Of a stretch of DNA of 45,482 nucleotides, positions 3,562-13,071 are shown piece by piece. Under the pieces are notes generated by a model. It saw nothing but the letters and a program-made list of their open reading frames with translations, was not told the DNA's origin and did not search any database. The position numbers were made by a program, and so were the translations under genes. The DNA is from an uncultured Candidatus Saccharimonas sp. (GTDB taxonomy: Bacteria > Patescibacteriota > Saccharimonadia > Saccharimonadales > OMJO01): positions 1 to 45,482 of the forward strand of contig CALRAM010000001.1 of the NCBI GenBank assembly GCA_943353165.1, read 5' to 3'. Position 1 is the stretch's first letter. Each line of letters opens with the position of its first letter.

Positions 3562-3737
3562 AAGTTTTGGCGATTGTTATTTAATTATACAAAAGCAAAG
3601 CTAAACCCCTTGGTGGTTTTCTTTGCTTTAGAATTGTTCACTGTAATATGCGCTTGCATAGCAATGATAATAGCAGAATTTGTATTAATAGTCAAAATAT
3701 TGGCTGGGGATGAGGCCCGGCCTGTCTGGCTGAGCCC

Positions 3738-3754
3738 CCTGTCGTTCCGACAGG
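3738..3754. repeat. GC-rich perfect hairpin 1
   Basis: CCTGTCG-TTC-CGACAGG. Confidence 0.8.
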
Positions 3755-3803
3755 AAGGCCAGGCAAGACGGACAGGGATTCGACCTACCTTTGGCGGAGG
3801 CCC

Positions 3804-3830
3804 GCCCGGCCTCCCTCGGGGAAGCCGGGC
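3804..3830. repeat. GC-rich hairpin 2
   Basis: GCCCGGC ... GCCGGGC. Confidence 0.75.
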
Positions 3831-3835
3831 CTTGC

Positions 3836-3855
3836 GATCCGCCAGCCGGCGGATC
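3836..3855. repeat. GC-rich perfect hairpin 3
   Basis: GATCCGCC-AGCC-GGCGGATC. Confidence 0.85.
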
Positions 3856-3895
3856 TCGCCTCGATCTTTTTTCGGGTGTTCAAATCCTTCATACT

Positions 3896-3938: not shown

Positions 3939-4012
3939 TGGCTGGGGATGAGGGATTCGAACCCCCGATCGTGGAACCAGAATCCACTGCCTTACCACTT
4001 GGCCAATCCCCA
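3939..4012 (-). tRNA. tRNA-Gln (CTG anticodon), CCA encoded
   Basis: Cloverleaf: TGGGGAT/ATCCCCA acceptor, GCC/GGC D-stem, GTGGA-TTCTGGT-TCCAC anticodon arm, GGGGG-TTCGAAT-CCCTC T-arm, GCCA 3' end. Confidence 0.93.
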
Positions 4013-4059
4013 ATAGCTAGGTATATTTTACCTTATAATTAACTATAAATTGTAAAAGT
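4007..4059 (-). repeat. 53-bp perfect direct repeat, copy A (tRNA-Gln 5' end plus promoter region)
   Basis: tccccaatagctaggtatattttaccttataattaactataaattgtaaaagt, identical to 4191-4243. Confidence 0.95.
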
Positions 4060-4081
4060 ACTATACATAAAGTGGTAAGGT

Positions 4082-4186
4082 CTGCCTTGGCAAGCTTTGC
4101 CTGCCCACAGAATTTTGTGACTACAAACAAGTGTGTAATCAGAAAAGTTCTCTTGCAACCCGCCACAGGCGGCTTTCACACTTGGC
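4082..4186 (-). repeat. 105-bp structured repeat, copy 1
   Basis: 104/105 identical to 6920-7024 (single T/C difference at 4175 vs 7013), same orientation. Confidence 0.95.
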
Positions 4187-4190
4187 TTAG

Positions 4191-4243
4191 TCCCCAATAG
4201 CTAGGTATATTTTACCTTATAATTAACTATAAATTGTAAAAGT
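4191..4243 (-). repeat. 53-bp perfect direct repeat, copy B
   Basis: Identical to 4007-4059; lies upstream (minus strand) of the 105-bp element copy 1. Confidence 0.95.
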
Positions 4244-4423
4244 TATATTTGTACTCGGTCTTGCTTGCGGCATAATTAGTTTGCTGCAAGCATTTCGCGA
4301 GTCGTTAATAGCAAATAAGTCACACTTTACGGAGCTGGACATGACAGTGTCTGCTGACGACCCTTACTATAATACATTGGCGTCCTAATCCTTAAGGGTA
4401 ATCTAACTGATTAACTACCGTGG

Positions 4424-6755: not shown

Positions 6756-6863
6756 ATGGAAAAGCGACCAATAAAATACTGTCTTTATGCCCGCAAATCG
6801 ACGGAAAGTGACGAACGGCAGGTTAAAGAGGACGCTCCTCCAGCTCCTGGTTTTGAAGAGTAG
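6756..6863 (+). pseudogene. Truncated serine recombinase (resolvase N-terminus)
   Basis: MEKRPIKYCLYARKSTESDERQVKEDAPPAPGFEE*: LYARKSTESDERQ is the catalytic N-terminus of large serine recombinases; stops after 35 codons. Confidence 0.7.
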
Positions 6864-6864
6864 G

Positions 6865-7031
6865 TTTCCTTGCATATTGCCACAGGCAATCTTCACCCCG
6901 ATCGTGGAACCATAATCCACTGCCTTGGCAAGCTTTGCCTGCCCACAGAATTTTGTGACTACAAACAAGTGTGTAATCAGAAAAGTTCTCTTGCAACCCG
7001 CCACAGGCGGCTCTCACACTTGGCCACACCC
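6865..7031 (-). pseudogene. tRNA-Gln-like sequence with an insertion in the D-loop and loss of the T-arm
   Basis: Minus strand: TGGGTGTGGCCAAGTG-[~85 nt]-AAGGCAGTGGATTATGGTTCCACGATCGGGG matches tRNA-Gln on both sides of the insert; anticodon CTG changed to ATG. Confidence 0.7.
6920..7024 (-). repeat. 105-bp structured repeat, copy 2
   Basis: 104/105 identical to 4082-4186. Confidence 0.95.
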
Positions 7032-7061
7032 AATTGACAGGGGTAATTGTATCAAGTTTTT

Positions 7062-7333: not shown

Positions 7334-8443
7334 ATGTCAAAAACTTTATTTACCAGCGAGTCAGTCTGTGCTGGGCATCCCGACAAAATTTGCGATGCAA
7401 TCAGCGATGCCTTGCTAGACGAAATACTAAGGCAGGACCCAAATGGACGTGGTGGGATCGAGGCTGTTGCTGGCGCAAACCAAGTTAGTTTATTTGGCGA
7501 GGTCAATACAACGGCAAAGCTGGACTATAAAAAAATTGTGTTTGGCCTGATAAAGAAATTTGGCTACACAAACCCAGATTGGGGTTTTTCGGCAGAGTCT
7601 GTATTTAGCAATTTTATCCACGAACAGTCACCAGAAATTTCCCAAGGTGTAGATGAAGATGGCGCTGGTGATCAAGGCATGATGTTTGGTTACGCTTGTA
7701 ACGATACGCCAGAACTAATGCCTATGCCGATAACTCTGGCACACTCGTTGACAAAGCGAATAGATGAAGCAAGGAAGAGTGGTGAATTGAAATGGTTGCG
7801 ACCTGACGGCAAAGCTCAGGTTACAATAGAGTACGAAGACGGCAAACCTACCAGCGTGGTCAAGGTGGTGGCCGCTGTAGCCCACAGCGAAGATACTAGT
7901 GCAGAGGATGTCAGAACAGGGATAATCCATAAAGTCATACAACCGATATTGGAAAAGTATAATTTTAAACTACCCGCAGATAAAGATATTGTCATAAATG
8001 GTACGGGGGCGTGGTACATCCCAGGTCCAGAAAGTGATGCTGGGCTGACCGGACGCAAGATAGTGGTTGATGGTTATGGTGGCTATGCCCGGGTGGGTGG
8101 TGGCGCATTTAGCGGCAAAGACCCTAGTAAAGTAGACCGTTCTGGCGCGTATGCTGCCCGATATATTGCCAAAAATATTGTAGCAGCGGGCTTGGCCGAC
8201 AGGTGCGAAGTAGGTCTGGCATATGTGATAGGTCAGCCAGAGCCCCTAATGCAGACAATTGAAACTTTTGGTACGGCTACCGTGTCCGAAACAGAGCTCT
8301 ACGCTTTCAAAGATAAATTGATAGACACATCCGTGAAAGGCATCATAAAAAAGCTAGACCTGCGACGACCAATTTATAGCCAAACCAGTGCATATGGGCA
8401 TTTTGGCAAGGCCGAGTTGCCTTGGGAAAAAGTAGTGGCATAG
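7334..8443 (+). CDS. metK: S-adenosylmethionine synthetase
   Basis: MSKTLFTSESVCAGHPDKICDAISDALLD...GAGDQGMMFGYA; start at 7334 after AAAGAAAGGA RBS rather than 7268. Confidence 0.96.
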   Translation: MSKTLFTSESVCAGHPDKICDAISDALLDEILRQDPNGRGGIEAVAGANQVSLFGEVNTTAKLDYKKIVFGLIKKFGYTNPDWGFSAESVFSNFIHEQSPEISQGVDEDGAGDQGMMFGYACNDTPELMPMPITLAHSLTKRIDEARKSGELKWLRPDGKAQVTIEYEDGKPTSVVKVVAAVAHSEDTSAEDVRTGIIHKVIQPILEKYNFKLPADKDIVINGTGAWYIPGPESDAGLTGRKIVVDGYGGYARVGGGAFSGKDPSKVDRSGAYAARYIAKNIVAAGLADRCEVGLAYVIGQPEPLMQTIETFGTATVSETELYAFKDKLIDTSVKGIIKKLDLRRPIYSQTSAYGHFGKAELPWEKVVA

Positions 8444-12825: not shown

Positions 12826-13071
12826 ATGGATCCAAATACAACAACCCCAACAGACCCAGTAGCACCAGCTTATCCTGCTGCAGACCCAGTAGCACCAGCT
12901 TATCCTGCTGCAGACCCAGTAGCACCTGCTGCAGACCCAACGGTAGCACCAGCCTATCCTGCAGTTGACCCAGTAGCACCAGCTACTGATCCAGCAGATG
13001 CTCCTGCACCAGAAGAAGCACCAGCGCCTGAAGTAGCACCAGCTACCGACCCAGCTGAACCAGCAATGTAA
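12826..13071 (+). CDS. Low-complexity DPVAPAYPA-repeat protein
   Basis: 81 aa with AAAGGAG RBS and a downstream terminator; Pro/Ala/Asp repeats. Confidence 0.75.
   Translation: MDPNTTTPTDPVAPAYPAADPVAPAYPAADPVAPAADPTVAPAYPAVDPVAPATDPADAPAPEEAPAPEVAPATDPAEPAM
12853..12933 (+). repeat. In-frame 30-bp tandem repeat
   Basis: gacccagtagcaccagcttatcctgctgca repeated twice exactly, then a shortened third unit. Confidence 0.9.

Follow-up and report, generated by a model that had tools for sequence, protein, structure and literature searches.

A tRNA-Gln gene split by a 90-nt structured non-coding insert, probably a copy of a non-autonomous mobile element of tRNA genes in Saccharimonadales

The stretch of DNA analyzed here (45,482 nt; hereafter the window) belongs to an uncultured Candidatus Saccharimonas sp. 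(genome G000) and carries, on its minus strand at 6896–7032, a tRNA-Gln gene whose D-loop is split by a 90-nt insert (7016–6927), as read directly in the sequence. The gene includes (i) a 5′ part (7017–7032, minus strand, TGGGTGTGGCCAAGTG), composed of the acceptor 5′ strand, the D-stem, and the D-loop up to G18, which is collinear with an intact tRNA-Gln gene upstream of metK in genome G001; (ii) the insert itself (6927–7016, minus strand), which begins with TGAGAGCC, ends with CTTGCC, is matched by covariance model R1 at 6927–7019 (90 bits, E = 3.8e-20), and has a predicted fold of −33.6 kcal/mol (z = −2.5); and (iii) a middle part (6896–6926, minus strand, AAGGCAGTGGATTATGGTTCCACGATCGGGG), composed of the D-stem 3′ strand, the anticodon arm, the variable region, and the T-stem 5′ strand, of which 30 of 31 nt are identical to 3963–3993 in an intact tRNA-Gln(CTG) gene of the window. 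Compared with this intact gene, the GT at about positions 19–20 of the tRNA is replaced at the insertion point, and the anticodon reads ATG instead of CTG. A putative second copy of the inserted element, truncated (6850–6895, minus strand, starting with TGAAGATTGCCTGTGGCAATATGCAAGGAAACC), appears to begin in the T-loop at 6895 and to run into the remnant of a serine recombinase gene; the covariance-model match to it is weak (6828–6898, 18.7 bits, E = 0.06), and the copy was otherwise read by eye. The initial annotation of this DNA had described a D-loop insertion of ~85 nt, a change of the anticodon from CTG to ATG, and a replaced T-arm. The large D-loop insertion is real and the anticodon change is seen in the sequence, with the length of the insert corrected to 90 nt, and the T-arm is not simply replaced, as the truncated second copy seems to start in its loop.

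The gene metK (S-adenosylmethionine synthetase, Pfam), which lies at 7334–8443 on the plus strand, served as a syntenic marker. In G001, a genome of the same family, the metK orthologue (86% identical protein) stands beside a whole, divergently oriented tRNA-Gln(CTG) gene, and the metK–tRNA spacer aligns with that of the window up to the D-loop. Because the whole gene of G001 and its aligned spacer occupy the same place, synteny shows the split gene to be, as judged from the aligned sequences, the ancestral tRNA-Gln(CUG) gene, broken by the window copy. The tRNA-like flanks, for which unrelated sequence in relatives had been named as a refutation, are thus true tRNA-Gln, and a newly made partial copy as the origin of the tRNA fragments at 6865–7031 is ruled out by the synteny with the ancestral gene. 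The serine recombinase remnant (6756–6821, plus strand) comprises the first 22 codons (MEKRPIKYCLYARKSTESDERQ), and its full-length homologues elsewhere are 68–76% identical over the N-terminus. It probably once abutted the tRNA 3′ end. In G018 (locus L163), a serine recombinase gene ends in the tRNA-Gln(CTG) beside metK, an arrangement suggesting that the remnant goes back to an independent integration event at this tRNA. Large serine recombinase genes of the order were also observed to run into the antisense strand of tRNA 3′ ends, their C-termini being tRNA-antisense-encoded (endings such as DSNPRPTGPKPVALIR and LVLGKDAL), at loci L148 (3211–4944), L149, L151, L152, L156, L158–L163, and L165; the 3′ ends of tRNAs of many isotypes thus seem to serve them as integration sites.

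The intact tRNA-Gln(CTG) gene (3939–4012, minus strand; ARAGORN; Rfam tRNA 61.2 bits), presumed to be the copy in service, lies 3 kb from the split gene and has its own upstream unit (4070–4248) and downstream unit (about 3701–3893). The upstream unit is a partial extra tRNA-Gln that directly precedes the intact gene and contains a second full copy of the element (4089–4178, minus strand; 99% identical to copy 1; 90.3 bits with the covariance model; z = −3.0). This copy is preceded by a duplicated leader and 5′ end of tRNA-Gln (4179–4248, minus strand), seen as a 58-nt direct repeat of 97% identity (4191–4248 and 4007–4064), and is followed at 4070–4088 (minus strand) by a short tRNA 3′ flank (AAGGCAG) and an inverted D-arm fragment (CCTTACCACTT), which aligns in antisense to tRNA positions 13–23. 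The repeat of insert and tRNA flanks extends over 105 nt (4082–4186) at 99% identity to copy 1 with E = 1e-48; therefore, the resemblance is not due to chance. The 99% identity of the pair 4089–4178 and 6927–7016 could reflect gene conversion rather than movement. The downstream partial tRNA-Gln contains a weaker third member of the family (3783–3861, minus strand; 32.2 bits, E = 2.2e-5), located between an antisense T-arm and the sense T-arm 3′ strand. A sequence search of G000 with the insert returned the 99% copy and a dozen further places, and the covariance model gave 19 matches at E < 1e-4. For 15 of these 19, an intact tRNA gene is found no more than 300 nt away, and all 15 are on the tRNA strand (about 4% expected, P about 1e-17).

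The covariance model, which was built from nine copies, describes a conserved family fold of three hairpins. In an alignment of 116 distinct sequences, which was fitted to the model and so leans towards it, 95% of cells were paired (70% in shuffles, 25–45% when slid), two-sided compensatory changes occurred at 26 of the 28 pairs, and the covariation score was 0.67, compared with 0.20 in shuffles and less than 0.10 when slid. A structure-free alignment of nine sequences revealed compensatory changes at 17 of the 28 pairs. The sequence of hairpin 1 is typical of the genome (CCCGCCTGTGGCGGG in G000, for example), with a conserved foot of UGAG or UGAA; the tag is not GTAG. The element is non-coding and carries no gene. 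No Rfam family matched the insert at gathering or relaxed thresholds, no match to the element was found in phage and plasmid collections, the one viral-contig pattern tried gave none, and no description was found in the open-access literature. As far as Rfam 15 and the open-access literature show, the family is uncatalogued.

Across the order, 95 copies were found within 500 nt of a tRNA gene, and 93 of these 95 are on its strand. The adjoining genes are those of tRNA-Lys, Leu, Gln, Ala, Val, Ser, Arg, Gly, Trp, Met, Pro, Tyr, Phe, His, Glu, and Asn. The host of a copy is an extra, usually partial tRNA copy, and the intact gene is left unbroken; since this intact copy of the same tRNA is usually less than 300 nt away, the interrupted copy is dispensable. 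Upstream units (33) contain the leader and the 5′ part of the tRNA, and downstream units (60) contain the 3′ part, in many cases together with a terminator. When the units were matched to the intact tRNA, the insertion sites fell in the T-loop (54–56), in the D-loop (about 19–21), between the D and anticodon stems (25–27), and in the anticodon stem on its 3′ side; the insertions replace 1–3 nt of the tRNA and follow a purine-rich RRG. Alignment of the spacers to the intact tRNA revealed an inverted fragment of the same tRNA, typically spanning the insertion point. The 95% level of shuffles was exceeded by 79% of the downstream units and 52% of the upstream ones, and a stricter control (regions from other tRNA isotypes) by 62% and 33%, respectively; the loci for close study were drawn from the genomes with the most copies, which these percentages describe best.

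The orientation is not absolute, as one copy (L066) lies in the inverted arm. Nested copies, in which one element is inserted between hairpins 2 and 3 of another, were found at L118, L085, L086, and L088, and copies also form tandems; both arrangements could arise partly from unequal recombination. The element is also hosted by partial copies of another structured RNA-like gene, where it sits in hairpin 1 of that gene. The gene itself, which is a few hundred nucleotides long and conserved (AAAGAGnCnnnnAGAGGGGGTGGGCACCGC ... CACCCTTCAACCCACC ... TTAAAGGGGTTAGTTTGTTTTAGAACG ... GGAGGGTAACAAC), was observed at L020 (3444), L037, L067, L069, L105, L108, and L137, and had no Rfam match at E ≤ 0.5 at five loci.

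Of 196 genomes examined in the order, 65 contained the element, the highest number being 21 copies in one genome, and it was present in 31 of 61 close relatives; many of the genomes compared are draft assemblies. In a phylum sample of 287 genomes, all matches were within the same order and none outside it. Copy-rich genomes include G000 (19 copies), G366 (19), G040 (16), and G036 (15); G001 had no covariance-model match. Downstream units with an inverted tRNA fragment and a diverged structured insert, missed by the model, were observed in G001 at L193 (tRNA-Arg CCT) and L196 (tRNA-Glu CTC), and these diverged units suggest that the counts may understate the extent of the family. The nearest neighbor of a copy was in the same genome in 41% of cases, compared with a mean of 8% and a maximum of 19% in 2000 shuffles of the labels. 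It had the same tRNA identity in 8% (3% when shuffled, maximum 11%), and tRNA identity thus explains little.

Because the copies are closest to one another within a genome, the presence is patchy, an orthologous site is empty, and copies nest and form tandems, we consider it probable that this order harbors a short (~90 nt) mobile element, non-coding and non-autonomous, with tRNA genes as its targets, and that the insert is a copy of this element. The features by which non-autonomous elements are generally recognized (dispersed genome-related copies, patchiness, and an empty orthologous site) are all found here, the orthologous empty site having been shown for one locus, the tRNA-Gln beside metK in G001. 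In its behavior, it resembles a spreading element and not a housekeeping RNA. Two readings had been offered earlier for the insert, and a match to a known mobile element family had been named as a refutation; no Rfam family matched. The reading as a transposition footprint comes close, as a repeated element has been inserted, but the whole element is present and not a footprint of it. As for the reading as a structured RNA derived from tRNA, the insert does have a strong structure with covariation across genomes, but it does not derive from tRNA, since it belongs to a separate conserved family found at several positions in many tRNA isotypes. Chance, introns, and scars of serine integrases fit poorly as explanations.

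No mobilizing gene was found; at the thresholds used, RAYT, reverse transcriptase, and serine recombinase had no match in G000. In the proposed route, the element would insert into folded single-stranded tRNA sequence by means of an enzyme supplied in trans, and strand switching during repair or replication would duplicate part of the tRNA gene and leave an inverted fragment; the survivors would be only those insertions that leave one whole tRNA copy. We favor folded single-stranded DNA and strand switching because of the insertion into sense-strand loops, the sense–antisense arrangement, and the duplication, which includes promoter DNA; still, we hold this single-stranded DNA route with somewhat less than even confidence. 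More tentatively, the element may represent a distinct class of mobile element specialized on tRNA: as RNA or as single-stranded DNA, the 90-nt sequence with its three hairpins would enter tRNA loops, and each insertion would be coupled to a rescuing partial tRNA duplication and to an inverted fragment that bridges the insertion point, a route unlike known transposition or splicing.

A specific form of this best explanation would be a REP-like element moved in trans by a RAYT (Y1/HUH tyrosine transposase), its GC-rich hairpin with a 5′ purine-rich foot being recognized in single-stranded DNA and inserted into single-stranded tRNA hairpins. RAYTs act on single-stranded REP hairpins (PMC3733652), and both the strand specificity and the hairpin targets of the element agree with such an enzyme. 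Association tests with helper genes covered 61 and 196 genomes. Among the 196, with shared ancestry ignored, the element was present in 33 of 45 RAYT-bearing genomes and in 32 of the 151 others (odds ratio about 10, P = 3e-10); the smaller sample, likewise ignoring ancestry, gave P = 0.002–0.008. We nevertheless did not adopt RAYT as the mobilizer, because the RAYT genes of the order are flanked by their own, different palindromes, a RAYT match is absent from copy-rich G000, G366, G040, and G036, and the association takes no account of ancestry. In the model search, moreover, the element occurred near RAYT genes only where a tRNA was also there, and we regard this form as doubtful. The palindromes bracketing individual RAYT genes are near-identical to each other and different for each gene (for example TTTCCAAGACCTGGTCTTGGAAA), as seen at L223, L226, L227, L228, L231, L232, L236, and L239. 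Some RAYT genes elsewhere are also flanked by unrelated inverted repeats (PMC3733652).

Spread at the RNA level, in which the element RNA would enter tRNA transcripts in a manner resembling reverse splicing, be copied to DNA, and recombine, with the inverted fragments as fold-back cDNA, seems improbable to us. It would accord with the G-U wobble kept in 96 of 116 element sequences, with the CUUG-type loops, with the range of hosts (tRNAs, a further structured RNA-like gene, and copies of the element), and with the sense–antisense arrangement. However, the upstream copies carry 58 nt of duplicated promoter DNA, which is not expected of an RNA intermediate, and 1–3 nt of the target are lost; in addition, reverse transcriptase was not significantly associated with the element (P = 0.18) and was not found in G000. 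Quite unlikely in our judgment is a domesticated regulatory RNA, in which a hairpin of element and tRNA fragment would control transcription or processing of the neighboring tRNA. The conserved fold, the strong covariation, and the likeness among downstream units of tRNA-Lys, tRNA-Gln, and tRNA-Val genes across several families are consistent with such a role, but the host tRNAs differ between genomes, the element is missing from many genomes and from most tRNAs of G001, copies cluster by genome and not by tRNA, and decayed and nested copies are common.

That the element is a scar left at tRNA 3′ ends by integrating serine-integrase elements is a very remote prospect. The large serine recombinases of the order do end in tRNA 3′ ends, and a remnant adjoins the window copy, but the distribution largely contradicts this origin: serine recombinase presence was not associated with the element (P = 1.0), and model matches were found at 2 of 20 recombinase loci and were missing at the other 18. 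At the two loci with the element, its position is 5′ of the tRNA that the recombinase abuts (L148) or several kilobases away (L151), and elsewhere it occupies the D-loop, positions 25–27, the anticodon stem, and the element itself. A self-splicing or enzyme-spliced tRNA intron is hardly credible and is largely contradicted: although the insert is structured and lies within tRNA sequence, and bacteria of the candidate phyla radiation are known for tRNA introns and rRNA insertions (PMC8172020, PMC11270868), group I and II intron models had no match at gathering thresholds or at E ≤ 1, a core of either group would not fit into 90 nt, removal of the element leaves 1–3 nt missing and does not restore the host RNA, and most host tRNA copies are partial and could not yield a tRNA.

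Neither target-site duplications in the usual sense (1–3 nt are replaced, not duplicated) nor terminal inverted repeats of the MITE kind were found at the element copies, the ends of which are separate hairpins and not inverted repeats of each other. The Rickettsia palindromic elements are short, palindromic sequences inside genes of a reduced genome, largely in protein genes, where they are tolerated. The element described here resembles them as a short palindromic insertion within genes of a reduced genome; by contrast, it breaks the gene that hosts it, and an intact copy of the tRNA persists alongside. With the REP/RAYT and CGTC repeats (PMC3733652) it has in common that it is short, non-coding, hairpin-forming, multi-copy, patchy between species, and presumably moved in trans; these repeats are often transcribed, as the element may be as well. 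CGTC repeats are without a known transposase (PMC3733652). REP sequences lie between protein genes, whereas the element is a 90-nt sequence with three hairpins that lies in tRNA gene copies, replaces 1–3 nt of the tRNA, occurs together with partial tRNA copies and inverted ones, has no GTAG or CGTC tag, and does not flank RAYT genes. In the candidate phyla radiation, structured RNA genes are likewise interrupted, tRNA genes by group I introns and rRNA genes by insertion sequences (PMC8172020, PMC11270868), in presumably the same phylum, but the element is far shorter, with no ribozyme core detected, no precise exon junction, and no homing endonuclease. The tRNA-targeting retrotransposons of Dictyostelium and yeast (PMC5006619) also use tRNA genes as landing places in compact genomes; they insert in the vicinity of tRNA genes with enzymes that they encode themselves, whereas the element lands inside tRNA sequence and encodes nothing.

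In these tiny genomes, tRNA genes are essential and mostly single-copy; thus, an element specialized on tRNA genes beside a kept working copy would be a striking case of genomic parasitism. The family is common, occurring in about a third of the sampled genomes of the order. It would account for the many partial tRNA copies that accompany intact ones in the order and is a concrete source of false or fragmentary genes in tRNA annotation, and with it the spread of a gene-less 90-nt sequence becomes testable.

A second, unrelated GC-rich insert family was observed in the 3′ end of the downstream partial tRNA-Gln copy of the window (3717–3776, plus strand; 87% identical to the query from L017). 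Short inserts of this family (CCGCCTGTCTGACCGAGCCCCCTGTCTTTCTGACAAGAAGGCCAGGCAGGACGGACAGG) lie in or next to partial tRNA copies at L015 (4068–4117), L017 (4305–4363), L241, L243, L245, and L247 (all four in G033), and L242 (G340). Among the 196 genomes of the order, only 3 contain this family, a distribution suggesting that it spread horizontally. Elsewhere in the window, a repeat scan revealed a short ORF with tandem proline/alanine-rich repeats (DPVAPAYPAA) at 12826–13071.
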